Source: Fragilariopsis cylindrus CCMP1102 (Eukaryota > Bacillariophyta > Bacillariophyceae > Bacillariales > Bacillariaceae). From it: a DNA stretch of 64,000 bases. The notes below the pieces were generated by a model. It searched no databases. It saw only the letters and a list, made by a program, of their open reading frames with translations, and was not told where the DNA came from. Both the position numbers and the translations under genes were made by a program. Shown here piece by piece: positions 1 through 34,800 of this stretch. The stretch spans positions 1 through 64,000 of the forward strand of contig FMBT01000369.1 of assembly GCA_900095095.1 (NCBI GenBank), written 5' to 3'. Each line of letters starts with the position of its first letter. Positions within the stretch are counted from its first letter, which is position 1.

Positions 1-218
1 TTGTGCGCACCTTTGGAAAAATGTCAATACTACTTTAAAGAGCCATTCTTTTGGTTGAAGTTTCATGTTGTTGCGCTAAAAGGTGCGCCATGTTAACTAT
101 CAGGGGGAAATGATTTCAACATTTATGATAGTTTTCTGAAAGCCTTTTTGTTAGTGTGCACCTCCTCGCTGCGCTCGACATGAAAGTTCAGGCTGCGCCT
201 GAAAGAATAAAAAATCCG
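1..218 (+). repeat. Left direct terminal repeat of the recombinase element
   Basis: This segment matches 5169-5385 over its full length with one indel (an extra T in the run near position 35). It contains several GTGCGC-type words (TTGTGCGCACC at the start, GGTGCGCC near 81, GTGTGCACC near 153) and a small hairpin (TTCAGG CTGCG CCTGAA) near 187-203. The shared sequence ends at TCCG (218). The repeat may extend left of the window. Confidence 0.9.
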
Positions 219-234
219 ACAGACAACTAAAAGG

Positions 235-257
235 TTTCAGGTAATATTAACCTGAAA
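235..257. other. Inverted repeat just inside the left terminal repeat
   Basis: TTTCAGGT and ACCTGAAA face each other around an AT-rich centre of about 7 bp. It lies 16 bp inside the left terminal repeat and reuses the CAGG/CCTG words of the terminal-repeat hairpin. It could be a recombinase or accessory-protein site, or simply a hairpin. Only the symmetry is seen. Confidence 0.5.
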
Positions 258-410
258 GTTGGTCTGTATTCCATCAGAGTATTAAGTGCGCGCTAAAACC
301 AATGCTCGTTACAAAGAAAATAGTCCTAAGTGAATAGTTTACATACATGTACATGATGTACAGTATGTGCTTTTCCGCCAAAAACATTAAGGCAATGCGG
401 CAATGCGATT

Positions 411-440
411 CTTATAAAAGACAACAAGTTCACTTGTTGT
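411..440 (+). promoter_or_regulatory. TATA-like box and hairpin upstream of the recombinase
   Basis: CTTATAAAAG (411-420) lies about 100 bp before the ATG at 521. It is followed at once by an 8-bp-stem hairpin (ACAACAAG, TTCA loop, CTTGTTGT; 421-440). The position suits a core promoter for the recombinase transcript, with the hairpin in or near the 5' leader. The promoter role is inferred from position and sequence only. Confidence 0.4.
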
Positions 441-520
441 ACATAACCATTAAGCATACAGCGGCAGTAAAGTAAAGACAACCGTAGCAGTAACTACTTG
501 CAATAAAGAATAACATCAGT

Positions 521-1240
521 ATGAGTGGAATGGCTCGTGCTGCTGGTGGTAATAAAAACTTCGGCACCCAACACCGTGCGGCTCATCCAAATAATGTTTA
601 CCATCCAAATCATCCTCGTAATACAGGAAGAGAGAATGCTTTCGAAGCAGTTGCAGCCTCTATTAGAAGGAATTCAAATAATGCAACGAATGATGTAGAG
701 AGTACTTCTACTAGGGCCGCCGGTATTAGTGATGGTACATCAAGCAACGACAGGCTTGGTCGTAGATGCTATGATTCTGTTACTCAGATGTTTGGAGAAG
801 GTACAAATAAATACTTTAACACATTGGAGTATGATGACATTAAAGGTGGAAAAGTTGTCCACTTCTTCAAGCAGTACATGGAATTATTAATTAAGAATTT
901 CATTCCCCTTGGTTGGTACAAAGACAATGGTTGGCATCAAGTTGATCCATCTCGTCTTGGAGTAACTACAATCTTGAATTATTTTGGTTCGTTGCTAGCC
1001 TTACTTAAAGCAGATCATCCAGAACATCCCTACCTGATTGGTGAGGCCAGCAAGCAGGTTTGGTGGGTAACGATGAGAGCTAATTTAAAAAAAGGCTACG
1101 ACGAGAAGGTATTCCTTGGTGATGGGGAGATATGGGATGCCAGCACGCGGTGCTTGTATCCAAAAATACCTCAATGGTGCTACGGGCTGATGATGCAATT
1201 GATTTCATTGAAAAAATTGATCTATATTCTATTTGCGTAA
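521..1240 (+). CDS. Crypton-like tyrosine recombinase, N-terminal frame
   Basis: A 239-residue frame starting at the ATG 521. The first ~85 residues are low-complexity and polar. From about residue 140 the sequence has the look of the core-binding region of diatom and oomycete Crypton-type recombinases: a TTILNYFGSLLALLK helix, a HPEHPYL segment, then a WW-x-x-MR-x-x-LKKGY stretch and WDASTRCLYP. It overlaps the downstream frame (from 1132) by 109 bp; that frame carries the catalytic residues. The two frames together probably encode one recombinase. The overlap may reflect recoding, an unrecognised intron, or simple decay of this copy; the sequence alone cannot decide. The family call rests on pattern and on the catalytic motifs in the next frame. 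Confidence 0.6.
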   Translation: MSGMARAAGGNKNFGTQHRAAHPNNVYHPNHPRNTGRENAFEAVAASIRRNSNNATNDVESTSTRAAGISDGTSSNDRLGRRCYDSVTQMFGEGTNKYFNTLEYDDIKGGKVVHFFKQYMELLIKNFIPLGWYKDNGWHQVDPSRLGVTTILNYFGSLLALLKADHPEHPYLIGEASKQVWWVTMRANLKKGYDEKVFLGDGEIWDASTRCLYPKIPQWCYGLMMQLISLKKLIYILFA

Positions 1241-3231
1241 GCATCATGAAATCGTCAACATTATCAAATTCAAATTATGTAGATCGATCTAAACTGTGTC
1301 ATAGTACATATAGTATGGGAAGATCAAGTGAGGTAGAGCAGATGCGTTTTTCAGAGATGGTATGGGATCCACTCGTTCAAGTTATTGATATCGGTTGGCG
1401 TGAACCAAAGACAAAAAATTCGTACGGAATGTCCCACATGAATTATCATGATCCTGATCTTTATGAAATTGACAATGAGCATGCCATGGCATGCGCTTTC
1501 ATTGAGGACAACAGAATGCTATGTAGAGAAGTAGATGATGACAAACGTGATTATATATTCTACCGTTGTCAAGAAAATGGTCGTTCTTATGCAGGCACTC
1601 AGCAAACTGCTACAATTCGTAAGCACCTTCCTCCAAAAACACCAAAAAAAATTGTAATGCAATATACAGGTAAATCCCCTAGAAAAGGAACGATGACAAT
1701 GTGTATAGTCCATCGTGATATAACATTGGTTCAGACGGCTGCACGTTCTGGTCACAAAATTGGGGGTAATATGCAAACCTATATAGATTTTGGTGGTGTT
1801 GGATTAACACTACCAGCTGGAATGTGCTTGAATGATTATCCTGATGTTTTGGGGAAGCCAAAACATTGCTGTTTTGATGGTATTCCTCTTGGTGATGATC
1901 AATTTATTAATGGAGTGATTGATGGATTACTTCCCAGTAATTTAGAAGATTTTAAGCAAGGTGAAAGATTACGTCCATGGTTGCGTGGGCTTGCAGCAAC
2001 GGTTATCATGTCTTACAACCATATGTTTATAAAATATGGTCCGGTGGATTTGGTCGTTCATCGTATGGAATCAGTATTTAGATCTATCAACGGTTTGAGT
2101 ATCAAAAAACTTGAAGATTGGAGCACCAGTATTAGACTACATTTTATACAATCAAATGAATGTGGTATTAGATTAAAGGATAATGCAAGCGCTTCTTTGA
2201 TTGTAGAAGCACTTAATCGTAACACCGAATCAACTGTTAGAATGCAATCCAAAAATAACAGTTTGAATGCAGCACTTAATAAAGCTAATGAGAAAATTAG
2301 TGCTTTAGAACGAGCAGTAGTACGTAAAGATGAATTACTAGCTAAAAAGGATAAGGAGAAACAACAGCAGGACAATGAAATGCAGAAACTAAAACAACCA
2401 ACAACAGTTGTCAACAGTCGTCGTCTCACCTTATCACCTCAATCATCTCAATTATCAGACATGTCATCACCTACGTCTTCTTCTACTACTACTCCTACTT
2501 CTTCTAAAGGTTCTGATGACAGCAGCATTTTAGCCGTATATGAATATAATAACAATAGTAATAATAACAATGAAATGGAGAAAATGGTTCAGGATGAATT
2601 AAGAGATTCTCCATTTGCAGAAATTCCACTAACAGGGTTCCAATTGGCAAATGTTCTAACTGGTTTAAAAAAACAAAACAAGATGGCAAGATTTGTTGAC
2701 AATAATGGTATGTTTTTTGATACGAACGGATATTTTGATGGAATTGGCAATGAGAAATCAAAGTACACCGCATCATTAGAGTTGGCCTTTGTGTCTTGTA
2801 CAGCAGAACAATTAAAAAGATTACGTGATACAGACGATAACATGAATTCTGTTGACCGCTGGAGTTTATGTTCCGCTATTCAAGAACAGGCATTGGTGAA
2901 AATGATTAAATTGACAAACCCTACCATTACAAAAGGAGAAATAAAAAAGTCAAAGTTCAAGGCTGCTATCAATGGATTAGGAACCCGTGTGATAGCGTAC
3001 AAGAAGAAGAAACATAATATTAAAAGTAAGGCGTCCGAGTCTCCTCTTTATTATCTTTTAAATCCTGATAAGACAAAAAAGAAACGGACGAATGAATCTT
3101 TTTTTTCCGCTATTCCAGATAGTAGTAAAAAAAGACAAAATACTGCTGCTCGTGCTACTGCTGCTGCATCAGCTAATGCATTGGCTACTATTGGAGTTCC
3201 AAATGATGGAATTGGACAATTTGGTATTTGA
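1132..3231 (+). CDS. Crypton-like tyrosine recombinase, catalytic frame with coiled-coil C-terminus
   Basis: A 699-residue frame (ATG at 1132 taken only because it opens the frame; the natural start is probably in the overlapping 521 frame). Catalytic tetrad in order: Arg64 in GRSSEV, followed by WDP and a PKTK turn (~79-96); a KSPRKG motif at 181-186, matching the HxxRKG motif of this recombinase group but with Lys in place of the first His; His208 in SGHKIGG; and the likely nucleophile Tyr217 in MQTYID, ten residues later as expected. Residues ~375-425 form a charged coiled coil, then a Ser/Thr-rich linker and a lysine-rich C-terminal region (~500-680), possibly for DNA binding. Tyrosine recombinases cut and rejoin DNA through a 3'-phosphotyrosine; here the likely substrates are the element ends. 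Confidence 0.72.
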   Translation: MGCQHAVLVSKNTSMVLRADDAIDFIEKIDLYSICVSIMKSSTLSNSNYVDRSKLCHSTYSMGRSSEVEQMRFSEMVWDPLVQVIDIGWREPKTKNSYGMSHMNYHDPDLYEIDNEHAMACAFIEDNRMLCREVDDDKRDYIFYRCQENGRSYAGTQQTATIRKHLPPKTPKKIVMQYTGKSPRKGTMTMCIVHRDITLVQTAARSGHKIGGNMQTYIDFGGVGLTLPAGMCLNDYPDVLGKPKHCCFDGIPLGDDQFINGVIDGLLPSNLEDFKQGERLRPWLRGLAATVIMSYNHMFIKYGPVDLVVHRMESVFRSINGLSIKKLEDWSTSIRLHFIQSNECGIRLKDNASASLIVEALNRNTESTVRMQSKNNSLNAALNKANEKISALERAVVRKDELLAKKDKEKQQQDNEMQKLKQPTTVVNSRRLTLSPQSSQLSDMSSPTSSSTTTPTSSKGSDDSSILAVYEYNNNSNNNNEMEKMVQDELRDSPFAEIPLTGFQLANVLTGLKKQNKMARFVDNNGMFFDTNGYFDGIGNEKSKYTASLELAFVSCTAEQLKRLRDTDDNMNSVDRWSLCSAIQEQALVKMIKLTNPTITKGEIKKSKFKAAINGLGTRVIAYKKKKHNIKSKASESPLYYLLNPDKTKKKRTNESFFSAIPDSSKKRQNTAARATAAASANALATIGVPNDGIGQFGI

Positions 3232-3423
3232 TCTGGATAATAAAATACATTTGGTGAACATCAAATGAAAGAAGACAAGTACATATACGTTGGTGGTGAT
3301 TGTCAAATATAAGAAGACAAGTATATATTAAAATGATAACTATTGTAAAGAGAAGACGACCAAAATGCAAAGAAATTAAGAACATTTATAAAGTATAAGG
3401 ATATCTATGTTATATTACTCTCT

Positions 3424-3770
3424 ATCTCACTACAGTAGTACAGTAGATAATACAGTAGTTAATACAGTAGTTACTACAGTAGATAATACAGTAGTTAATA
3501 CAGTAGTTACTACAGTAGTTACTACAATAGTTACTACAGTAGATAATACAGTAGTTACAGTAGTTACTAAACTAGTTAATACAGTAGTTACTACACTAGT
3601 TAATACAGTAGTTACTACAGTAGTTAATACAGTAGTTACTACAGTAGTTAGTACAGTAGTTAATACAGTAGTTAATACAGTAGTTATTACAGTAGTTATT
3701 ACAGTAGTTAGTACAGTAGTTAGTACAGTAGATAATGCACTAGTTAATACACTAGTTACTACACTAGTTG
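3424..3770. repeat. ACAGTAGTT-type minisatellite
   Basis: About 345 bp of ACAGTAGTT, with variants TAATACAGTAGTT and TACTACAGTAGAT in 9- and 12-bp steps. It starts about 190 bp after the recombinase stop codon. Long open frames across it on both strands (Val/Thr-rich) are artefacts of the repeat. It forms the left part of the cis-repeat block between the two convergent genes of the element. Confidence 0.9.
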
Positions 3771-3867
3771 AAATTTGTAACTCGAAGTTGGCAAAAATGC
3801 CGTATCTGGAATCGAGTATTTTTGCGCGTGTTTTTTGATGAATACGTAACGTATCGGTCCACTTTTT

Positions 3868-3950
3868 ACTAGTGATTTTCAAAAAAATTACTAGTGATTT
3901 TCAGAAAAATTACTAGTGATTTTCAAAAAAACTACTAGTGATTTTCATAT
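3868..3950. repeat. 22-bp tandem array (ACTAGTGATTTTCA unit)
   Basis: Four copies of ACTAGTGATTTTCA, starting at 3868, 3890, 3912 and 3934, each followed by an A-rich spacer, giving an exact 22-bp period. It lies between the two palindrome modules at about 3820-3858 and 4007-4046. An exact two-helical-turn spacing is common in protein-binding arrays; that role is an inference. Confidence 0.85.
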
Positions 3951-4006
3951 TGCCCTTAAGTAAATATTTTGAAAAAGCACTAAGATTTTCATTTTTTCTG
4001 AAATTT

Positions 4007-4046
4007 TGCGCGTATTTTTGAGCGGATACGTTACGCGTAACGTATC
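4007..4046. other. GCGCGT plus 22-bp perfect palindrome module
   Basis: TTTTGCGCGTATTTTTGA runs into a 22-bp perfect palindrome (4025-4046, core TTACGCGTAA). A related, shorter module lies at about 3820-3858, with TTTTTGCGCGT upstream and an imperfect ATACGT-A-ACGTAT palindrome. The two modules bracket the 22-bp array. Such symmetry fits a dimeric binding site, a cruciform that a resolvase could cut, or an origin-like element; none of these is shown. Confidence 0.7.
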
Positions 4047-4049
4047 GAA

Positions 4050-4160
4050 GGTATGATCATACCGTATGATAGTATATCCGAGGTATGTTCATACCGTATG
4101 ATATTATGTCTGAGGTATAATCATACAGTATGATAGTACTTAAATAGGTATGATCATACT
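4050..4160. repeat. Iteron-like array, 32-bp period, palindromic core
   Basis: Four units with core GGTATGATCATACC or close variants start at 4050, 4082, 4114 and 4147. The first core is a perfect 14-bp palindrome, and the first three are followed by a GTATGATAxTAT-type half repeat. The regular 32-33-bp spacing resembles iterons of replication or partition sites. It begins 3 bp after the 22-bp palindrome and lies about 210 bp beyond the RusA stop codon. Confidence 0.8.
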
Positions 4161-4369
4161 ATTTAGCCTTTTTTAACCCCGTTATAGCTCCCTAAGTAAA
4201 ATCTGAAACAACTAGTAATAAAATAAAATAAGAGAAAATTTACAACGTGTTTGACTTAAAAATATTACTACTATTAATTTACACTTCTAAGTAAATAATT
4301 TCAAACCCACGTTGCTGCATAAGTAAACTCAAATTTACTAGCAGTAACTTTCAAATATACACGCAGAGA

Positions 4370-4867
4370 TTATAACTCAACAACAACAGGAAGTATTTTG
4401 ATAACCGTTGATGGTGGCTGACCTGGTACAACATATCTCTTCTCAGCAACAATCCTTGTGACACAGATATCATTTTCATAAACTCTAACAGTGTTTCCAT
4501 CAATTGAAATTGGCATTTGGAGACAATCCATGACAAACTTAACCAAGTTGTCAAGGTCGGCCTCCCATTGAAGTTTGATATTAAAGACAAGATGCAGCTC
4601 AACGTGCCTCTCACCAAACTCAATGAATTCTTTTCCATGAAATTGATGGAGCAGCATGATAGATCTTAAGAAATCTTGTTTCACCTTCTTTTGTTGGTCA
4701 TAGCGGGTACAAAAATGGCGGCCACCAGGACGCTTCCATGCTAGTGGACGACCAATGATGATTGCTCCTAAATGATTAGGTGTTGATACGAAAGAACTAT
4801 TATCATAATCAGGCTGGTAGTTAGGAATACGAATAGGCATTCTAGTGATAGCTGTATTGAAATGCAT
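4370..4867 (-). CDS. RusA-like Holliday-junction resolvase
   Basis: 165 residues, close to the usual RusA length (~120) with a short N-terminal extension. The family signature is plain: an early GRPLAWKRPGG strand (39-49), then EADLDNLVK with Asp104, Asp106 and Lys110, Asp114 three residues after, and ENDICVTRI with Asp133 at the place of the last catalytic Asp. In E. coli RusA the equivalent Asp and Lys residues bind magnesium and cut Holliday junctions symmetrically. All are present, so activity is plausible. The gene is convergent to the recombinase, with the palindromic repeat block between them. RusA is best known from phages and bacterial prophages; its place in a tyrosine-recombinase element suggests that it resolves junctions or branched intermediates during excision or copying. 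ATG 4867 is the first Met of the frame. Confidence 0.82.
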   Translation of the reverse strand: MHFNTAITRMPIRIPNYQPDYDNSSFVSTPNHLGAIIIGRPLAWKRPGGRHFCTRYDQQKKVKQDFLRSIMLLHQFHGKEFIEFGERHVELHLVFNIKLQWEADLDNLVKFVMDCLQMPISIDGNTVRVYENDICVTRIVAEKRYVVPGQPPSTVIKILPVVVEL

Positions 4868-5168
4868 GGATGATATGTGTGAGTACCTGTGTAATTCGTT
4901 TTTTATTATAATTGCAGTAGTAATAGTAGTAACAATTTAATATATTTTGTGAGGAAAGATTTGTGAGAGACGAATACAATTTATCTTGGCACACCAAAGA
5001 TCATTCCATAATTCTTCACATCATGTGGTGATATTTTTCATTTGGTGTCTAAGTAAACAAAAATTGCGCGTTGGAACGCTCCACAGAGGTACATGTTTGT
5101 TTTTGAACGGTTTAGGGGGGCTCAGGATTTTTTCCGGGACTGAATTTTTACTCTACATTTTTTACTTA

Positions 5169-5385
5169 TTGTGCGCACCTTTGGAAAAATGTCAATACTA
5201 CTTAAAGAGCCATTCTTTTGGTTGAAGTTTCATGTTGTTGCGCTAAAAGGTGCGCCATGTTAACTATCAGGGGGAAATGATTTCAACATTTATGATAGTT
5301 TTCTGAAAGCCTTTTTGTTAGTGTGCACCTCCTCGCTGCGCTCGACATGAAAGTTCAGGCTGCGCCTGAAAGAATAAAAAATCCG
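5169..5385 (+). repeat. Right direct terminal repeat of the recombinase element
   Basis: Second copy of the 218-bp terminal repeat, one base shorter. Sequence after the shared TCCG (5385) differs from that after position 218, which fixes the right boundary of the repeat. The copy ends 247 bp before the start codon of the membrane-protein gene at 5633, so the element lies in that gene's upstream region. Confidence 0.9.
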
Positions 5386-5581
5386 GCACAGCGCATAATG
5401 TAATTAAATGCATGTGAGTCCCGCAGATCGAAGAATTATGGATGCCGTTTATTTGAGATGAGCACACAGCAAGCGACCTGCAATTTTAGCTGGCAGATCG
5501 TAGCATTCGTTCTCATAAAATTCGTATTTTGAAATAATAATAAACACAACAGTAAAACAGTAAAACATCAATACTCTGAAG

Positions 5582-5588
5582 TATAAAA
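5582..5588 (+). promoter_or_regulatory. TATA-like box of the membrane-protein gene
   Basis: TATAAAA, 45 bp before the ATG at 5633 and 197 bp beyond the end of the right terminal repeat. Position and sequence suit a core promoter; nothing else supports it. Confidence 0.35.
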
Positions 5589-5632
5589 CGACCAGAACAA
5601 CAATCTTGTGAAGCAAACGACATAATACAATC

Positions 5633-5642
5633 ATGAGCAATT

Positions 5643-5679
<37 letters not shown>

Positions 5680-6616
5680 GATCTTATATCGAGCACTGTA
5701 TTTTCTACTGCTTACGAATGCAGTACTAGTTACTGTTTCGGCATCAGCGATAGAAAACGAGTCAAGATCATTACAAGCCGGCTCGTATGGAGGAGGAAGT
5801 AGTAGTAGCTCAGGCTCTGGTGCAGGGTCCGCTGCTGCGGTTGGCCTTATTGCTGGATTAGCGGCAAAATCTGGCTTCTTTGGAACTATAGGAGGGAAAG
5901 TTGTATTAGCAATAATCATTCTAATTGTAATCTGTGTTGTTGTTGTTCGCTATATAAAGAAAAGTAAAGGGAGCGCTCCATCGGAAACTAAATTCTTTGA
6001 AGGCAATGACCAACAGGATACAATCAACAATGATAATATTGATAAATTCCAACAGCCGTTCTACTCGGGATTGTATACCGGAATATATGATCAAAAAGGA
6101 ACACGTATGCCAGTACAACCGTTTGAAATCTACTTTCAAGAACAATTTATTGAAGCTGACGATGAGGATGAGTATGTAGGCACAATCTTCCATGCAATCA
6201 CAGGTAAAGGCGCTGATATGGTTGGTCCATACACCTTGAGTGGAAAATCAGTTGGTAATAAAATTAGTATCACAAAAAAATATTACGGTGCAGGAAATCA
6301 AATTACAGATGTTGGGCACGAAGTTACATTAAGATTGGACAAACTAGGTGATAGTCATATCTTTGAAGGTAAATTTTTCGTCAATACAGAGGAAGTACAC
6401 GAACAAGGATTGTATCAGATGTGGCCTGTTGGTTACAATATTAATGCTACTGCTAATCCTGCTATATCAATACGTACGTCTGCTGCTGTTGCGGTTGCAG
6501 AGATAGATGAAGAGAATCAAATTCCTGTAGCTACAGCTACCACAATCTCGTCTGAATTGATGGGAGAAAAGGAAGAGGACTTCCAAACAATATCTTTAGA
6601 TCATGAAAGAAGGTAA
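5633..6616 (+). CDS. Signal-bearing single-pass membrane protein, function unknown
   Basis: 327 residues; I do not recognise the family. After a poly-Asn run (5-15), a hydrophobic segment (~17-39, ending SVSASA-like) looks like a signal peptide or signal anchor. A Gly/Ser-rich linker follows, then a membrane helix around residues 86-106 (VVLAIIILIVICVVVV) with a basic KKSKG stop. The remaining ~215 residues, on the cytosolic side if the first segment is cleaved, contain a compact region (~140-275) with many aromatic/Gly alternations (YSGLYTGIY, TGKGADMVGPYTLSGK, HIFEGKFF, QGLYQMWPVGY), suggesting a beta-rich domain. It is probably a host gene of diatom type. The adjacent mobile element occupies its upstream region and may influence its expression. 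Confidence 0.75.
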
Positions 6617-7456
6617 AGATACTGAAAAGAATGTGAGGAGTCTTATTTTGTGAAATATATCTATAAATTAATTAAAAAGTTGCATTTAAGAACTCTGTTA
6701 TTGTGTAGGCCTATTAATGCAATGCGGTATATACATATATGGTAATCTCCTACAATACATAGTCGAGTGGATTGAATGCTGCACTGTACGACTCAAGGTT
6801 TTTCTTGTCACTTCGAATCTCAATCTTATAACAAATGTTTGCTATTGCATCGAGCTTAAGGATACATTTTAGTCGCTTCATTGCGCTCAACCTGCCGCGA
6901 AAAAAATCTCACCGGTGCATTTCTGCGCGCAAAACGGTGATAAAAAGAATAATTAATATAATCTCAATCATTTACAGTATCTCCTTATACCAGTCGATTG
7001 ATTATTCTTCCATAATATTACCTCTCGACCAAATATTTATAATGCAGTAATAGGAGAGACCTATTAAAGTTGGACGATGCAATATCAATTAAACGCGTAT
7101 AGTTGTAATTCTTTTTTTTTGCAATTAAACGCGCATAAAGTTGTACTTCTTTTTCTTTGCTCGTAAGTGAGAAGCGAAAGCAGTCATCCATTTCAATCGA
7201 ATCGTTGCGGGCGTTTGAACACTATCATTATAGAACATTATTGAAATCTTTTATCACATGAGCACCAATCGATGCATTAAGCATAGATATATCGCAGCAG
7301 CATCTTGAAGAACACGGAGAACAACAATTGATACCAGTTCTTTTTAAATCGTCCTACATTACTCAGCATTCATATGTTATCGTATGTAGAAGAAGATCCA
7401 AGATAAACACATAGTCATCTTCGCGTGTAGTCCTATTATGTTCGTCGTGATATATT

Positions 7457-15756: not shown

Positions 15757-17061
15757 GTTGCTGCCTTCCCGCGGACTAAAAAAAACTACAAACCTTACTA
15801 GTAGATACTACTTACTTTGTGTGTACCTACGTATAGTACTCTCTAGAAGCAGGATTATACAGTACAGTACAGTACAGTAGCTCCTTATTACTAGGTGCTG
15901 TCACCATCTATTTGCTAGCTAGCTGGCTAGCTAACTAGTTGGCTACTGGTACAGACGGTTGTCGTTCGTGTGCTGTTAGACTTCATCGTAGCTATATAGT
16001 AAAGTAGAAATGCACCTTACATCAAGTGAGAAAAGGAGATGGCTACTATACATACTCGTAACTTATTGGTTTGTTTGACACTACTTAGAACTACTGTAGT
16101 AGAGCACTTGAGGACTACCTTGTTGCTGTACAGTAGGTCCTGTTCCTACAGTACTCTTTTTCTGTTGTTGTTCCACCCTGAAGATTCTCTCTCTCTTTTG
16201 GCTTCGATGGCAAAAAATTGAATGACATAGATTAGCTTCTTTTTAATTTTAATTCTTCGCCGAAACGAAACACGCTTGGTACAAGACTGGAAGCAGGGGT
16301 AATAAATTTTTTGAGGGTTGCGCCACGAACAAAAATTCTCGCGGTGCATGTTTGTTGGCCAAAAAGATAAAAAGTTGTCCCCAGCTGATTTTTTTTCAAT
16401 CACAATTCACTAGACATTACTAGTAAAACTATAGAACTTTCAACAGCATGCAACTTACAAATTGTTTATTTTAAATTGAAATTTAAATATGTTTCCTCCT
16501 AGAACTATTTTTAACCATGAGTAGGACTATACTAACTGTTTCTGTTTAATACAAGTGTAATGTAAAGTCATTTTTGATTGTAAATTGCATGAATTATGCA
16601 GTTGTTTTTTTCAGTTAGTTTTTAAGAACAAATCGTGACTTAATTTCGTGGGACTCAAACACTAAATTCACTGTAAAAAACAACTTCATAATTCATGCAA
16701 GTAGTAGCTACCGTACTTCCTCCGTGTGCAACGCTTGTTTCGTACGCGCTATCGACTGAAAATATTTTAACACGTTCAACGACGAGATTTGCAAGGAGGA
16801 TGAGGGAAACTTGTGACTTTAACCCTCTATTTTGTGATGTAATTCAGTTAGAAGTTCTTGAAACAAAGTAATTAATTGTCAGAGGATAAGCAAAGAATGA
16901 CAAGAAACCAAATAATAAGAGAGAGAGAGATTAGAGATAGGTAGAGGTCAGAAAGAGATAGAGAATAGAAAGGAAAGAGAGAGTGAAAAGTTATTAACCG
17001 CGACGGGGGAACAACCACCACCACCACTGACGATAACATATACTGTAGAAAAAGCATCATA
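15757..17061. other. Intergenic interval
   Basis: No convincing gene. It holds a foldback at 16585-16700 and a GA-rich stretch (about 16915-16985) that probably lies in the promoter or 5' leader of the gene at 17062. Small frames near 15.7-16.4 kb show no family pattern. Confidence 0.55.
16585..16700. repeat. Foldback with ~26-bp inverted arms
   Basis: TTGCATGAATTATGCAGTTG plus a T run (16585-16611) is matched in reverse by 16675-16700, with one internal mismatch, around a spacer of about 63 bp. It could be a small MITE-like element or a hairpin transcript. No target-site duplication was evident by eye. Confidence 0.6.
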
Positions 17062-19508
17062 ATGACGACGGAGGAGGACAAAGCTAATACTATAAAAGAC
17101 AACGACAGTACTAATACTAATTATAATGCAGCTGACAATGACAATGACAATGACAATGACGACGAAGAACATCAGCGTCAACATCAGAATGAGCAGAATG
17201 AGCAGAATGAGCAACAGTTAGTGTTATTTGAATCATTACTAATAAAACGAATTGTGAAATTTTTAAATTATAAACCATATGATTTTGCTATAACACTGTT
17301 GCCACCACCATCATCGCAATCATCATCGCAATCACAATCATCGCCATTAGTAGTATCCTGTGATGAAACGATTAATGATGATGAAGAAGATGATAATAAT
17401 AATTCATTACTTTTATCATTAACACCTGAATATCGAAACTTACTAGAAACATCTATTATGTTGATCCGTGAGGAGGAGGAAGAGGAGGAGGAGGACGTCG
17501 TCAACGAAAATGATAATAATGATAATACCCCAAAAGCAACAGCTACTACTACAGCTGCTATTACTACAGCTACAGCTAAATATCATCTTGGATTAGAAGC
17601 ACAACATTTACCTTTCATTGCTAAAAAAATTCGTAAAGTTTATCATACCACAAAAATGAAAATGAAAGAATCAAAAGCAAAAGCAATGAAAAAAGACAAC
17701 ATCACCAACAACAACAATAGAAATAGAAATGAAGAAGAAGTAGAAGAAGAAACAGTGACGAATGTACTACTATTTAATATAACATCGTGTTTACTATTAA
17801 TTCAACCAGATCATTCTACAGTATGGTCTGATCGACGTCGATGTTTACTATCTCAAATACAAAGAATAATGGAAACGACGCAACTGCAAAATAATAATTC
17901 GGAACAAGAAGAAGAAGAAAAAAAAGAAAATGAAATATTATTATTAATGTGGTACAATGAATTAGATTATTTAGATTTGTTGATGACACAACATTCAAAA
18001 GCGTACGTATTTTCGATCTGCTGCTGCTGCTGCTGCTGCTATTTATCGGACATTGCTGTTTTGTATTATTGTTGCTCACTTTCTCTATTTCACTCTCTCT
18101 CTCTCTCTCTTTCTCTGCTTATACTCAAATACAATAATATATTCAAAAAAGACCTTCTTCTTGGGCACATAGAAAATATGTATTACGTCAACTACTATCT
18201 TTACATAATGAACACCACCAACAAGAAAAAGCTCAATCATTAGATGGTAATATGACATCTATACAAGATTTAGTAATGAAAGAAGTTAATGGTATATGTA
18301 GTAGTGTTGCAGAAAAGTATCCAAAAAATTATTATGCATGGACGCATCGGATATATGTTGTATCAGAATTATTATTATCAACAGTGTTCATCAAAAACAA
18401 TACTATTAACAATTATATTGATATTGTTATCGGTACTATTAGTAACATATCCAAATTTTTAGAAATAGAACTAAAAGAGAAAATGTATAATGAATGGTTA
18501 CCTACACATCCAACAGATCATTCTGCTATACATTATACATGTCAAATATTAGATTCTTTGTTTGATAGTTTAAACCAAAAAGAAGAATACTATCTCCTAT
18601 ATATAATGAAAAAGTTTGATGATAATGACTACAGAGAAGAACTACATCATTATCAACAACTAAAACATCTACACGCGGAAGTAGTCAAGAAGAAATACGA
18701 ATTATCAATTTTAGCATTGAAACAAGTCCAGATATTGCTATCAAAGTACTATCAATCATCAAATCCAAATTCAAATTCAAATTGTGATTGTAATTGTAGT
18801 GAAAGTTTATGGATATTACGTCGTATGACATGTCAAATAATATGGAAACATTCATCATCATCATCATCGTATATCGTCATCAAACACCACGAGGATGAGA
18901 ATGAGAATAAGAAGGAGTCATTGAGGAGGAGGATGATGATGAGACAATTGGTTCGAAATGATATAAAATCTGTTATAGATTCATTGAATATCAATGCAAG
19001 ATTATCATCGTCATCATCAGATAAAGAAGAAGAAGACTCATTGTTCTCATTATCGTTATCGCAACTAGTTGGGGCTGCTAGTAATGCTAATGGTGATGAC
19101 GAAAAAATAGATGCGATTAGTAATACAAATAATATTCACGCTTGGACTTTTTTAGCCTGGTGCATAGTAAACATTATAAATATTGATGGTGATAATAACA
19201 ATGACAATAGCAATGGCAACGACAATGAAAAAACAAAAAGACCATCGTTTTCGTTGTCGTCATTCAGCAGCACTACTACTTTATTCACTCACGACATACG
19301 AGAAACTGTTATGCGTCGTCTACAAGGAGCAGAAGCGAGAGCAACATCAACAGCAACTGCAACTGCCACAGCTGCAAATAATGATGGATCTACTGCTGAT
19401 GCTACGGCTACGGCAGCAACGACTACTACTACTGCTACTAGTACAACGGCACAGCATAATACTAGGCTATGGACATCGTCCTCGTCACCAAATCTATTAT
19501 TATTATAG
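17062..19508 (+). CDS. Protein prenyltransferase alpha-subunit repeat protein, PTAR1-like
   Basis: Two exons, 17062-18002 and 18152-19508, with a 149-nt intron (donor GTACGT, CT-rich interior), giving 765 residues. The junction restores a classic prenyltransferase-alpha repeat: ...HSKA then PSSWAHRKYVLRQLL. Other landmarks parallel human PTAR1 in the same order: LGLEAQHLPFI (cf. LGVESWCVKFL), LLLIQPDHSTVWSDRR (cf. LLLLNPDFTTAWNVRK), KYPKNYYAWTHRIYV (cf. RYPSNYNAWSHRIWV) and PTDHSAIHY (cf. VSDHSGFHY). PTAR1 relatives share the fold of farnesyl/geranylgeranyl transferase alpha subunits; in animals PTAR1 takes part in Rab geranylgeranylation. The protein is roughly twice the human length because of acidic and Ser/Ala/Thr insertions and a low-complexity C-terminus. 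ATG 17062 is the first Met after the GA-rich leader. Confidence 0.82.
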
Positions 19509-25960: not shown

Positions 25961-27228
25961 GAATATACCAACAGTACTTGGAATATTTGCCATATTGGTG
26001 TAGTGGAGGGGCGGGGAACAATATAATATTAGACATAAATTGGCCCAAAATATACACATTGCAAAAATATTTGAGGTACTACCGCGGCCATACCACAGGT
26101 GTGCTGATCACAAATAAAATAGCTAAGGATCCACCTTAATCATAGAAGGATTAGATACTACCTTTGTTATAGAAAGCCACACATATCTTTGGGGTGCCAT
26201 GGCATGGGTCAAAACCGAACAGCACATGAAATCCCTAAAATAACAAAACCGTGAGCAATCAAGGCCTTGATGCACCATCAATATGGTCTAAGTACACAAA
26301 AAAATTATATGGAGCTCACTATTATACCTATACCTACAAGGTCCACATAATGCTTAGGTTTCTCTGGAGGTTATGAAGGTATAGGGCTGCATTAACCACA
26401 AAATGGGCCATTTAGGCCCCAAAACAGGTTTTTCCACTTTTGTGCGCACCTAAGCTGGATCATCAACACAAAACATCAAGAGTAAGTTGCCTTTGATATA
26501 TATGGTGCACTCCATTCACATATCTTGTGATGATTCACCTTTTTGAGTGTATTGTATGTCCACAAAACACTGCAAATGGGCCATTTTTGGGTGTTATTGG
26601 ATGTGTGCTGTGTGTGAGCCTACATTGTGAGATACCAGTAGGCTTAGGAGACTAAGGAATATAAAAGTTCTCCATCAAATAGGTCAATTGTAAACTTCAT
26701 AGTTTATTTTTCCAAAAAAATAACTTTTTAGGTGTATATACTTGATGCTAAAATTGTTATCATATACTAGACTAACAAATAATAGTAGTAACATTTGTGC
26801 ATGATTTAGTTCTTATACTAATGACTAAGCTTTCGCGGAGATTTATTCAATGACTGTTTGACAAAATTCTTCAAATAATGCATGAAGTTATTTATTTATT
26901 ATCATAAGTATTTTGATTAATCCCGAATTTGGGGCATAATGATTATACAGTACGGTATTTGTGCATTTAGGACTATTCATAATTTGTGTCGTGTACAAGT
27001 CACTGAAAGACAAGAATTCAACGCTTGAAAATTATTGATAAATTGACAGTAAAACAAAGAAACAGAAGACAAAAACTTTGTGTGACAAGCTCCCATACGA
27101 CAACATAACAGAAAGAGTCAACAAGTCTATCACCTATCTTACTACCTACCTACCTAGCTAAGTAGCTTTATTCTAATAGGCCAGAAGACTAATCATACAT
27201 CTTCTTACATAAATACAACGAACAATAC
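25961..27228. other. Intergenic interval upstream of the giant gene
   Basis: No gene recognised. TTTGTGCGCACCT near 26440 resembles the first bases of the terminal repeat at position 1, but the match does not extend. The last ~200 bp presumably include the promoter and leader of the gene at 27229; no clear TATA box was seen. Confidence 0.45.
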
Positions 27229-29160
27229 ATGATGAGTGATAATACTAATAATAACATAATGAATAATGAATACGTTATCGACGAGTTCTCGAGCAGCAGT
27301 AGTAGTAGCGACAGTGACAGTGACAGCAGCTCCGAGAAATATCAAGAGGAGATTATAATAAAACAACAAGAAGAAGAGGTAATTACTGAACAACAACAAG
27401 AGGAAGACGAAGAGATAATAATTGAAGAAGAATTAGGGGAATATGAATATTCAATTGATCATCATTTTAACGAGGCTGATTACAACGACGTAATAGTGGG
27501 GGCGAATGTTACAAATGATGACAGCAACGACAACGACAACGACAACGACGTTGACGGGGGAGGAGGAGAAGAAGAAATCCTTTTTGATAGTACAATAATA
27601 GGTAGTCATAGTAGCAGTAGCATACCACCAACATCATCATTTGATGCTGAGTTTGATTTTGATAATGATGTACCACCGATGACGGTTGTTGGTGAAGTAG
27701 AAGAAGAAGAATTAGAATTTGATTCTACTGCTGCTGCTATTACTGTTGCTCGACTGCTTGCATTAAAAGAAAAAGCACAACGTCAAGTTCCTAGTGATAG
27801 TGACAGTGACAGTAGTAGCGAAGATGAGGAGGAGGAGGAAAAAGAAAAGGTACCTACAAAACGCCGAATAATAAGTCAACAACCTAGTGACAGTGATAGC
27901 GACAGTGATAGCGAAAGTGATAGCGAAGTAGAAACAAGAAAGCCTGTAGAACGCCAAGTACGTCAAGTGCCCAGTGACAGTGACAGTGACAGTAGTAGCG
28001 AAGATGAGGAGGAGGAGGAAAAAGAAAAGGTACCTACAAAACGCCGAATAATAAGTCAACAACCTAGTGACAGTGATAGCGACAGCAATAGCGAAAGTGA
28101 TAGCGAAGTAGAAACAAGAAAGCCTGTAGAACGCCAAGTACGTCAAGTGCCCAGCGACAGTGATAGTGACAGTGATAGCGAAGAAGAATCGACTGTAGAA
28201 CAACGCCGAATAATACGTCAACAGCCCAGTGATAGTGAAGAAGATGAAGAAGATGAAGATGAAGATGAAGTAGAAAAGGGTGAGGAGGAAGAAGAGGAGG
28301 ATATCAGAGGAGAAGAAGTTGGAGGAGCTGCAGTAGTAGTAGCCACCGCCGGAGCACCAGGAGAATCATCATCCTCTAATAATCATATTGAATTTGAAAT
28401 GTCATTTCAAGACGTAGTAGAAGTATTTGATAATAGAGCAGAAGAAGTAGCAGTAATGACACCATCTCAACATCTGCAAGACGATATAGAAGAGGAAGAC
28501 GATAATGATGATGACTGGAATTCTAATTCTGATTTTGATTTTGATTCTGATTCGAATAATGATCTGAAGGATCTGCCGTCCGTCACGCAACAACAACGAG
28601 TAAAGGAAGATGATTCCGATACCAATTCTGATTTTAATTCTGATTCTGATTCGAATAATGATCTGAAGGATCCGCCGTCCGTCACGCAACAACAACGAAT
28701 AGAGGAAGATGATTCCGATACCAATTCGGATCCATTGGAGATGAGGAGAGAAGAAATCCCTGTAGAACACCCAATAATACGTCAACAGCCCAGTGATAGC
28801 GACAGTGATAGTGATAGCGAAGAAGAAGAAGAAAAGACTTTAGAACGCCCAATAATACGTCAACAGCCTAGTGATAGCGATAGCGATAGCGAAGTAGAAG
28901 TAGAAGAAGAAAAAGTTGGGGAAGAGAATGTTGGAGGAGAAGAAGGAGCTGTTGTAGTAGCCGCCGCCGCAGGAGCAGGAGAATCATTATCCTCTAATAA
29001 TATTGAATTTGATTTATCATTCCATGACGTAGAATTATTTGATACAGTAGAAGAAGCAGCAGCACCATTCTCTAAACAGCAACAAAACGATATAGAAGAA
29101 GATGAAAATGAGGAGTGGAATTCTAATTCTGATTCTGATTCGAATGATCCATCCTTCACG

Positions 29161-29192
<32 letters not shown>

Positions 29193-31793
29193 ACAACAAC
29201 GAATAGCGGAAGATGATTCGGATTCATCAAATTCGGATCCATCAAATTCGTCATCAATGTTAACGTCCCCACCGTCATCATATAAATTGACACGGGGGGT
29301 TATAGAGGCAGAGGCAGATAGTAACAGTAGTCGTAATAGTAATGATATCGTCGTCGAACCACCTGTATTATCAGGCCTAGAGTCAGTGGCCAATTACCCA
29401 ACCTTATCTACACCCACCTTACTCAATAACGACATCGATAATGATGATGACGAGGACAATAACGAGGGTAGTATCAATAATTATGGCATTGATACCGATA
29501 CCGATATTGTTTTTGAACCACCTGTATCCATCAATATGGATGATGGTGTTGGGACTTTTGATACCGACATCGTCGTTGAACCACCTATATTATCATCAGG
29601 TAGCATTGACAGGGTGAATGATGAATATCCAAGTCCAACTCCATCTGCACTATCTCTACTACTTAATAATAATAATGATGATGATGATAATAATAATAAT
29701 AATAATAAGGGCAACAACAATACACCATCCTCGTCCTCATCATCCTCTGATGGTAGCACCAATAACAATGAAGAAGACGACAATGACGATGATAATGGCA
29801 ATGATATTGTATTCGAGCCGCCGGTGTTATCAAGTTTTGTGTCAGATAATCACAATAGTAATGACAGGAACAATAATGATAATAGTTATAGATCATCCTC
29901 GTCCTCATCATCATCCTCTTCGGACGACAATGAAAATGACAATGATATCGTCTTCGAACCGCCGTTGTTATCAGGTTTATCTATAGAGGATAACTACCCA
30001 GCCCCATCTTCAATCCCCTTACTCCATAGCAATGATAATGATGGTATCAACAGCAACAAAAACAACAGATCGTCATCCTCATCCTCATCATCGTCTGATA
30101 GCAGTAGTAACAGTGACGATGGAAACAATAATACTAAAAATATTGTAGAAGAAGATTGGAATTCCGATAGCAGCAGCTATTCCGGGACGGAAGAAGAAAC
30201 GCATGAGGCAGCAGCAGGACCACAACTACCACAATTTGGTGCACCATCAAATAAAATACCATCACCACCACCATCGCATGCAGATGATGATGACAATACG
30301 AATATGTCATCGTCAACAACACCATCCTATAGTGAAGTTATGATGACAAGTCCTTCACAGCAACAGCAACAACAAAGTGACATGCTATCGCCATTAACTC
30401 CATTATCGTTACCTTCTCCTATTGGCGATGATGATGGTAACGATGATGGCATAGAACGAATTAGCAGCAGTCAATTAGGGGAATTATTGGTTGAACCATC
30501 TCGGGATATACCATCACTACCAGATAATCTTTCGTCGGCATCTTCTTCATCATCCTCATCTTCTTCCTCATATGAGGAGGAGGGAATAGTAGCAGAAACA
30601 ACAGTAGCAACATCAATGGAACAAGAATTACTGGGATTTTTAAGTACACTACCAAATACTATGTCTTCTTCACCATCGACATCAATAGAACAAGAAGAAG
30701 ATCCCATCATTTCCTCTGAGGAAGTACTGTCCCCACCATCACCACCATCACCACCTTCTTCACCATCGACATCTTCTTCATCACAGGCAGAGGAGGAAAT
30801 AGTAGCAAAAACAACATCAATAGAACAAGAAGAGGAAAGTTCTAATAATGATTATGTTCCCATCATTTCCTCCGAGGAAGTACTGTCCCCACCATCACCA
30901 CCTTCTTCACCATCGGCAACTTCTTCATCACAGGTTGAGGAGGGAGTAGTAGCAGAAAAAACATCAATAGAACAAGCAAAAAAAGGGGCGCGCGCGAATA
31001 AAATTAAAATAAATGACCGTTGGATAGCTCACCCTGCGCGCGAAGAAGAAAGTTCTAATAATGATGATATTCCCATCGTTCCCTCCGAGGAAGTACTGTC
31101 CCAATCATCACCACCTTCTTCGCCGCAGCAAACAATACAGCTACCACCACAACAACAACAAGAACAACAGGAAAAGATTGATAATGATCCTCATCCTTTA
31201 CACAATAATACATCGTCACCAACATCGTCCAGTTCTTCTTTAGTAGGAAGAAACAATAATAGCGACAGCGACAGCAATAGTAATGGTATTGAAAATGTTA
31301 TAATGCAGGCACCGATTATCCAGCGACAAGGTGGAGATCTGGACGGTGATCGAATTGGTGGTAGCGATGACGACGACGGTGAAAATGTAACTGACAATGA
31401 TAGTGAAAATTGGGGAAGGGGTAGTGGTAGTGATGATGAAGGGATAGAAGAGAGTTGTACTGGAGAAGCAGTTGTATCGGAAAACATTAGTAATAATAAC
31501 TATAACAATGATGCAGAAGTTTTATTCCGTGGTGAAAACAAAATTGGAGGAGGAGACGATGATGATTATGGAAGTGATAGCAGCGGCTCATCGGAAGAAG
31601 AAGAAGGAGAAGAAGATCAATCAAAAAATAATGAAAGTGCGGAACATCAAAATCACGATGATCTTTCTGATAAGGAAGATTTAGAGAAGGGTGGCGATGG
31701 CGAGGAGGAGGAATACAGCGAATCTGACGATGATGAGTCCAACGAAAATGTATCCGACTCAGAATCTTCGAGTGGAACATCCGACGATGATGC

Positions 31794-31824
<31 letters not shown>

Positions 31825-34800
31825 ACGGATAGTAGCTGGGAGAGCGAAACAGTATCATCGGCAATGGTGCAAGATACAGACGACGATGAGAGACCGATCC
31901 AAAGAACAGATAGTGGAGAAAGCGAATGTACAATACCATCAACAAATGCGGACATGGATGCTGGAGCAAAATTATTACCTAGTGATGCACCCGATGATCG
32001 CTCAAATACACCGCCAATAACAGAATCGATTCTTATCCCAGCTACTTCGAATAATACAAATTCAGATGCTAATAGCATTTCTTCTTCCAAATCTTTCCAC
32101 GATGTCGATGATGATGTCGATGACGATTACGATGTCGATGACGATGTTGATGACGCAGTCTCAAGTGATGATGAAAGTCAATCTATTGCTTCACTTGCAA
32201 GGCATGTGTTAGCTAGAGCACAAGATAAAGCAGATTCAGGTGAAGAACAGGGAAGGAATGGACATGATGATGAAAAAGATGAAGAAGATTCCAGTGACGA
32301 TGACAATGTTGATAACGATGTTGATAATGCAGCTCCAAGTGATCAATCTATAGATTCCAGCGATGATGACGATGTTAATGACGATGTTGATGACGCAGTT
32401 TCAAGTGATGATGACACAGTCTCAAGTGATGATGAAAGTCAATCTATTGCCTCGCTTGCAAGGCATGTGCTAGATAAAGCACAAGATAGAGCAGATTCAG
32501 GAATAGGAAGGAATGGACATGATGATGAAAAAGATGAAGAAGATTCCAGCGACGATGACAATGTTGATGACGCAGTTTCAAGTGACAATGACACAGTTTC
32601 AAGTGATGCTGAAAGTCAATCTATTGCTTCACTTGCAAGGCATCTGTTAGATAAAGCAGTGAGTAGTTCACATTCAGGTGAAGAACAAAGACGGAATGGA
32701 CATGATGATGAAAAAGACGAAGAAGATTCCAGCCACGATGACGATATGGAGGACGCAGTTTCAAGTGATGATGACACAGTTTCAAGTGATGATGCAAGTC
32801 AATCTATTGCTTCACTTGCAAGGCATCTGTTAGATAAAGCACTGAGTAGTTCAGATTCAGGTAAAGAACGAGGAAGGGACGGATATGATGATAAAAAAGA
32901 CGAAGAAGATTTCAGCGACGATGGTACGCCAGCAGAACAACAACAGAGTGGTCGAGATCCGAGCATCTCAAGTCGTGATATTAGAGCAAGCGAATCGAAT
33001 TCTTCTTTTGATGGATCACACACAGACGGTTCAAGGATATCAAGCGAGAACACTTCACAAATAGAACCACATACCGCAAACGATGATATTCGACAAGTGG
33101 CTCTTGATCTTCTGAATCGAGCAATGGGACCTTCGGATGATGTAGCTGCAGATGATTTCGTTTCTGAAGAAGGAGTACAGTCTTCCAGAAATATCGAAAT
33201 GGCATCAATGGACGATGAAACAGCAGAAAGTGAACCCTTTGCTTCCACACCAGTAAATCTTTTAATTGAAAGTGATGATGTTGGTGAAATAGCCAGGAAA
33301 CTTGTTAATGCTGCAATGGAGAAAGCCGGCGAAGATGAATTGCCGAACGAAGGTACTATCGTACCGCAAACTTCAGCTAACGAGAGTGAAGAAGACTTGG
33401 GCGAAATTTCAAGAAATATTGTTAACAAGGCAATTCATTCAATAAATGAAGACATCGTGGATGCAGAAATTTTTCGTGAGCCTTCTCATGATGAAAATGC
33501 TGATGCTGGTGGTATCGATGGACGACATGTTGATTCGGAAATGGGAAATGCGGACGATGGCAGTGGTAGGGTTGAAGTCTTTTCTCATACCTCCAGTGAT
33601 AGCAACGACGTTGCTGTTATTGCTAGAAATATCCTTATTACTGCAAGCAATGCTTCAGATGATGAAAATACGGCGGAATCACTAACACCGAATACGTCTG
33701 GCGAAGGCGAAGACTTGGAGGAAATAGCAGAAACGCAGCGATTAAGCGAGCGGTTAAGAATACAACGACTATCGAATGATATAGATGACGCCAGTCTTTG
33801 TTCCGCAGAGATTGAAGAGCTTGATGATTTACTGGATAAAAATGAGAGTGGAATATCCATTAACGAAGATCGTCTATATGATCTAGATTTGTATGATCGA
33901 TGGCAAAATGGCGAGACGCTCAACGAAGAGGAAACGAAGGATCTAGAAAATTTCAAAGCGAGACGAAGGGATGCACGATCGGGTAGCAATGTTGATACGT
34001 ATTCTCATTTAGACGATCTTCGTCATCCTAAAGATAATTTGGATGAGGATAGAATGTCGCCCAGATCAGATACATCCGAAAGCGAAGTTGTGGCGGAAGA
34101 AGCACTATCAACCGATGATCAACTTGTAGCAGAAGAAGCACCGTCACCGGAGACCTTGGGATATACTGTAGGAGACGAATCAAGTCTATCGTCGTGGGAG
34201 CTAGGTAAGTTATTAATTTTGAATGGAAATTAAAGTGAAGCTAATTGTTATTTCATCATTTTCAATTGTTCTAACGTTGATTCTTATACTACTTTGTCCT
34301 AATTTTGTGAAGATGAACTCGATGACATAATTAGTCGCCGAGACAATGGTGACTCCTATTCTGAAGATCGATTGCGTAACTTGGAACTTTTCGATAGATT
34401 TACAAATAATGCTTCTTTGGATAGCGAAGAACTCGAAGATTTATCAAACTTCCGAAACGAAAGAAAGAAGGAGCGAGAATATGGTCGTGAACTTATTGAG
34501 CTTATCGAAGCAAACGAAAGAGGAGAAGAAATCGACACCGATCGTCTTCTTAATCTCGAGCTCTATGCACGTCATCAAACAGGTGAGGAACTAACAGAAG
34601 AGGAGTTGGAAGACATGGATATATTTTTTCGCCGAGAGTCAGACTCTAAACTTGATTATCTCGACCAGGTAAATCAACCAAAAAGCTCCGAAGTTGACGA
34701 ATTATCACTCCAGTCTGATGTTTTATTTGATCCTCCAAGAGAAATCTTAGAAAAGCCATTGCTGGCAGCATCTTTGAAAGCAAAAGATGAAAGCATTTCA

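Follow-up and report, generated by a model that had tools for sequence, protein, structure and literature searches.

Within the first 64,000 nucleotides of contig FMBT01000369.1 (assembly GCA_900095095.1) of the diatom Fragilariopsis cylindrus CCMP1102, hereafter the window, a stretch of ~5.2 kb is bounded by two long direct repeats and contains a probable tyrosine recombinase (YR) together with a gene of the RusA family of Holliday-junction resolvases. The best explanation we can offer, held with about even confidence, is a Crypton-like DNA mobile element which would excise as a circle via its repeats and carry its own Holliday-junction resolvase, the present copy being probably a recent insertion, or a converted one, that is now disabled. 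The arrangement is real and unusual, and probably a variant of the Crypton kind. No eukaryotic YR transposon with its own Holliday-junction resolvase was found in the open-access literature, as represented here and below by titles and parts of texts. The argument turns on the following features:

1..218, forward strand: left direct repeat, a lower bound, at the window edge
521..1240, forward strand: open reading frame 1 (ORF1), probable N-terminal part of the recombinase, to about 1160-1190, without a Pfam or PHROGs match
1123..3231, forward strand: ORF2, probable YR catalytic domain and long C-terminal part, from a profile alignment over residues 65-223 (1315-1791)
4370..4867 with the stop included (4373-4867 without it), reverse strand: RusA-like Holliday-junction resolvase gene, from Pfam, PHROGs and a profile, with an alternative start at 4840
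5169..5385, forward strand: right direct repeat, with similarity reaching 5388 by BLAST

The two repeats lie in the same orientation and, over 218 and 217 bp respectively, are distinguished by one 1-bp indel, with no mismatch up to their common end (...AATCCG). BLAST lengthens the pair to 221 and 220 bp (99.1% identity over 221 columns), and on the right the similarity breaks off sharply, at 5385-5388. On the left, the repeat opens at the first base of the window, so that neither its outer limit nor the DNA that adjoins it is in view and 218 bp is a minimum. The near-identity of the copies would fit a recent insertion or conversion. That a repeat begins exactly at base 1 might also suggest an assembly artefact, in which a chimeric contig end has misplaced it there, but an indel sets the copies apart and the sequence runs continuously from the repeat into the interior; we consider such an artefact very improbable. 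Unlikely, although less so, is that a Crypton-type transposon of the ordinary kind adjoins or surrounds a RusA-like gene unrelated to it, and that the repeats stem from a tandem or segmental duplication extending leftwards out of the window. Such a combination would be in keeping with the cut left repeat, with the single known copy and with the description of Cryptons as lacking both terminal inverted repeats and long direct repeats (PMC3212892), whereas the sharp right-hand limit of the similarity and the filling of the space between the repeats by the RusA-like gene, the recombinase and a structured region speak against it.

Membership of the reverse-strand gene in the RusA family and the retention of its catalytic residues are, at the level of sequence, solid. 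The gene lies inside the repeats and converges on the recombinase gene. Its ORF matches Pfam PF05866 with 25.2 and 25.4 bits (cut-off 22.8) and phrog_140 with 1e-6 and 6.5e-7; NCBIfam returned no match. A profile built from 19 bacterial RusA proteins gives it 19.7 bits, a score as high being obtained in none of 5000 shuffles (best 9.6), and the best of the other scores over the 281 ORFs of the window is 8.3 bits. In an alignment with these 19 proteins, the equivalents of the catalytic residues D70, D72, K76 and D91 of E. coli RusA are kept. The PF05866 match and the D-x-D-N-x-x-K ... D catalytic set are thus shared with E. coli DLP12 RusA and phage RusA, while the protein is unlike the rest of the family in its eukaryotic setting, in a 9-residue insertion ahead of the third Asp and in that close relatives were not found among viral contigs, phages and plasmids.

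The YR identity of ORF2 is likely and has moderate support, although it is unproven by sequence. The gene is spread over two forward frames that overlap, 494-1240 (first ATG 521, stop 1240) and 1123-3231; by eye, their translations suggest a single gene interrupted by a -1 shift near 1160-1190. The break may stem from a dead copy, an overlooked small intron or a sequence error. ORF2 contains the YR pattern R...K...[H/K]xxR...[H/W]...Y at canonical spacing, with R at 1321-1323, K at 1408-1410, K-x-x-R at 1672-1683, H at 1753-1755 and Y at 1780-1782. This motif resembles the YRs of algal genomes and of CryptonS elements. The motif patterns, composed after the sequence was seen, occur in 6 of 5000 shuffles in their strict form and in 351 of 5000 in their loose form. 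Furthermore, our own profile of 29 prokaryotic YR catalytic domains (from 30 fetched with PF00589) gives ORF2 5.0 bits in an unfiltered hmmsearch, equalled by 3 of 2000 shuffles. When the same profile is compared with ORF2 by hhalign, the alignment covers 134 columns, its posteriors sum to 64.5, and the R, K, R, H and Y residues line up; none of 400 shuffles exceeds 78 columns or 48.2, and none of 32 other fragments of the window 55 or 28.5. A PHROGs match to a "DnaD-like helicase loader" (0.0017, 0.0035) was disbelieved; it spans a Q/N-rich stretch that by eye appears coiled-coil-like.

Between the 3' ends of the convergent genes lies a palindrome- and iteron-rich region (3439-4160), and further inverted repeats are located within the direct repeats and at the left junction:

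187..203: inverted repeat TTCAGGC-TGC-GCCTGAA in the left repeat, candidate recombinase-binding site
219..267: hairpin at the junction of the left repeat and the interior, with a perfect inverted repeat at 235-257 (8-bp arms, 7-bp spacer), z -3.97
3439..3769: 12-bp tandem array (TACAGTAGTTAA), 27.8 copies
3842..3854: palindrome ATACGTAACGTAT, which has CGTAACGTATC in common with the palindrome at 4025-4046
3866..3947: 22-bp tandem array, 3.7 copies
4025..4046: perfect 22-bp palindrome; no perfect inverted repeat in the window (spacer at most 12) is longer
4049..4138: 32-bp tandem array, 2.8 copies, with palindromes
5354..5370: inverted repeat TTCAGGC-TGC-GCCTGAA in the right repeat, candidate recombinase-binding site

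Six perfect palindromes (arms of at least 6, spacer 0-1) fall within 3781-4150, a region picked after inspection, compared with a shuffle mean of 0.43, and none of 500 shuffles reaches six. An arm as long as that of the 22-bp palindrome arises in one shuffle of 500. The motif TATGATAGT is common to two of the 32-bp units and the direct repeats, and four of its five occurrences in the window are within the element. The 12-bp array is open in frames of both strands and probably non-coding. At the left junction, any inverted repeat of the class found there appears in 5 of 1000 shuffles of 206-275. The hairpin carries TAATATTA, which is reminiscent of rolling-circle origins; as such an origin it was rejected, the octamer occurring seven times in the window and no Rep match being found. 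Within the direct repeats, the inverted repeat belongs to a size class (arms of at least 7, spacer at most 3) with 47 members in the 64 kb. On post hoc inspection, four of the seven TTTCAGG half-sites in the window sit at the element's ends, two of these four being the same place in both repeats. Because typical YR sites consist of two inverted repeats of 11-13 bp flanking 6-8 bp (PMC3212892), the in-repeat and junction inverted repeats are put forward as candidate YR sites only. Rfam (over 1-7000) and tRNA scans returned nothing.

In a Crypton-like element of this design, the recombinase would act on sites within the two direct repeats and release a circle of ~5.17 kb retaining one repeat. 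The circle could re-enter the genome at another copy of the repeat or at a similar site, and entry at another copy would restore two repeats. The palindrome- and iteron-rich region would then be the control region of the circle, as replication origin or in partition, and the RusA-like enzyme may cut Holliday junctions that result from incomplete YR strand exchange, from recombination between copies or from replication. In a bolder form, to which we give tentative and limited credence, the element would represent a new class of eukaryotic circularising elements, which combine a YR, their own RusA resolvase and an iteron/palindrome replication region, travel by recombining at their long direct repeats and amount to protist integrating plasmids; the encoded resolvase would in that case have natural substrates in the cruciform-extruding palindromes. 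Recurrence of the gene pair would reveal another way for YR elements to handle stuck recombination intermediates, a bridge between Crypton-like transposons and plasmid- or phage-like replicons, and long-terminal-repeat-like repeats on a YR element without reverse transcription.

Several observations weigh against a mobile element with its own resolvase. Only one copy of the element is known, and its left flank is outside the window. The RusA-like gene is tied to it solely by position between the repeats. The frame of the recombinase is broken and the copy may be dead; furthermore, the catalytic His of box II is replaced by Lys, and the recombinase ORFs have no YR match in Pfam, PHROGs or NCBIfam. 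Our own YR profile clearly beats shuffles in aligned length and posterior only: 23 of 400 shuffles equal or exceed the hhalign raw score, which another fragment of the window also equals, and 324 of 400 attain its similarity measure; the hhalign P-value is 0.089 (one run) and the probability is below 1% in both runs. Structure prediction adds little, the single-sequence model of the YR being unusable (pLDDT 32.8) and that of the RusA-like protein poor (single-sequence, pLDDT 48.1); Foldseek with the latter gave no match at E 0.001, and the 50 PDB rows listed hold no RusA and mostly tRNA-synthetase chains. PDB searches by sequence gave no meaningful match. Finally, the surroundings of the in-repeat inverted repeat (5300-5400) fold no better than shuffles (z 0.36). 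Within these bounds, what an earlier note on this DNA had read from the sequence was borne out: direct repeats of 218 and 217 bp one indel apart, the R...KxxR...H...Y set of a probable recombinase, now placed in ORF2 of a gene split over two frames and unrecognised by the family databases, and a convergent RusA-like gene with its key acidic residues.

The arrays and palindromes, being iteron-like, can also be accommodated by an integrated plasmid- or virus-like circular replicon, which would have entered by homologous recombination at the repeat and whose YR would serve monomer resolution, as FLP and XerCD do, and not transposition. The match of the RusA-like ORF to phage families points in the same direction, as do the diatom plasmids pCf1 and pCf2 and the plastid tyrC, small diatom elements with site-specific recombinases, pieces of such plasmids being known from a plastid genome (PMC2873285). 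However, the recombinases of the described plasmids are of the serine type, RusA is not named in the available part of that account (PMC2873285), and the three main ORFs (ORF1, ORF2 and the RusA-like ORF) have no convincing replication-initiator or capsid match in Pfam, PHROGs or NCBIfam; we regard this origin as improbable. Algal Polinton-like viruses (14-40 kb) and giant viruses likewise employ YRs (PMC12220804, PMC13236599). A Polinton-like virus or virophage finds no support here, the three main ORFs having no capsid or packaging ATPase match in Pfam and no terminal inverted repeats of at least 20 bp being visible.

Among described YR elements, CryptonS (Kojima and Jurka 2011, PMC3212892) comes close to the Crypton-like element proposed here, as a YR-encoding DNA element without reverse transcriptase (RT) and with a region C-terminal to the YR; some CryptonS elements also hold an extra gene. 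Their terminal direct repeats are of 5-6 bp, however, mostly TATGG, and the extra gene encodes a C48 peptidase (PMC3212892), whereas the present repeats measure 218 bp or more and the additional gene is RusA-like. TATGG is absent from either strand before 1131 and at 5006-5437, the left end of the element not being visible. With repeats of this length, the lack of long direct repeats by which Cryptons in general are described does not apply. The earlier note had stated that Cryptons are normally without long terminal repeats, which PMC3212892 supports, but long direct repeats on a stramenopile YR element have a precedent, of 159 bp, in Ectocarpus (PMC3537659).

That precedent, a DIRS-like retrotransposon with an ALOG-type YR, combines a YR with terminal direct repeats and thereby lends some credit to a remnant of a DIRS/Ngaro-type YR retrotransposon that has lost its RT. 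Unlike the present element, it exceeds 9 kb and encodes Gag, RT, RNase H and an inactive methylase, and the available text makes no mention of RusA (PMC3537659). Neither RT, RNase H nor methylase was found by Pfam in the three main ORFs, eight shorter overlapping ORFs inside the element lying outside the scan. Split direct repeats are one type of end in DIRS, Ngaro and PAT elements. Another consists of inverted terminal repeats with internal complementary regions (PMC3266345). Ends of these types were not found among repeats of at least 20 bp, the right copy having no split direct repeats next to it and the visible part of the element lacking terminal inverted repeats, with the left flank missing from the search; we hold such a remnant to be quite improbable. 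PAT/Ngaro split repeats were likewise discarded on the repeat search, and an LTR retrotransposon on the failure to find RT and integrase in the main ORFs (Pfam).

The search for relatives covered prokaryotic and viral collections, and so is no evidence of absence in eukaryotes; its exact short protein and sequence patterns reach close relatives only. ORF2 gave 18 pattern matches in genome contigs and one in viral contigs, none of them confirmed, and the RusA-like protein two in viral contigs, again without confirmation; ORF1 had no match in viral contigs. The RusA-like protein had no phage match at E 0.1 (six records at E 1 to 10) and no plasmid match at E 1. The box II motif, the repeat, the 22-bp palindrome and the hairpin, as exact patterns, each occurred zero times in viral contigs, and a third copy of the repeat was not found in the window (blastn, E 1e-3). 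In the open-access literature, a whole-word search found no paper with both RusA and Crypton, works on "Crypton" and "terminal direct repeats" do not, in the parts available, describe the present layout, and those on "RusA" and "diatom" include none on such an element, by title. In PMC6459981, PMC12945077 and PMC6165237, "RusA" is an author's name and not the enzyme, as far as the available parts go. The statement of the earlier note that no element of such a layout had been described therefore agrees with what was found in titles and parts of texts. Its proposal of a distinct lineage fared less well: the most economical reading remains a YR element whose long direct repeats enclose a RusA gene, but the lineage claim has behind it a single copy, apparently broken and with one flank out of view; a second copy or a relative is needed to sustain it, and none was found in the window or in the prokaryotic and viral collections.

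The surrounding DNA is eukaryotic and, from its gene content, probably nuclear. Five of the ten neighbouring ORFs scanned have Pfam domains above the cut-off (PPTA, caspase, TIP120, HSF and LRR). Directly past the right repeat, 5612-6616 encodes a predicted protein with a hydrophobic stretch and without a Pfam match above the cut-off. At 16987-19508, a prenyltransferase alpha-like gene is spread over frames that overlap, the second of them with PPTA, which suggests an intron near 18,100. A 2346-aa open frame at 27193-34233, very rich in Ser, Asp and Glu, lies immediately upstream of the LRR frame, and the two may be one gene. The LRR frame, 3019 aa long at 34303-43362, contains a long tandem protein repeat with a unit like HLEGLNQPQSSEQDELSLLSDGLFDSPRAMPKKPLLAAALKMNDEKSKSEHDDLNK, followed by C-terminal leucine-rich repeats.

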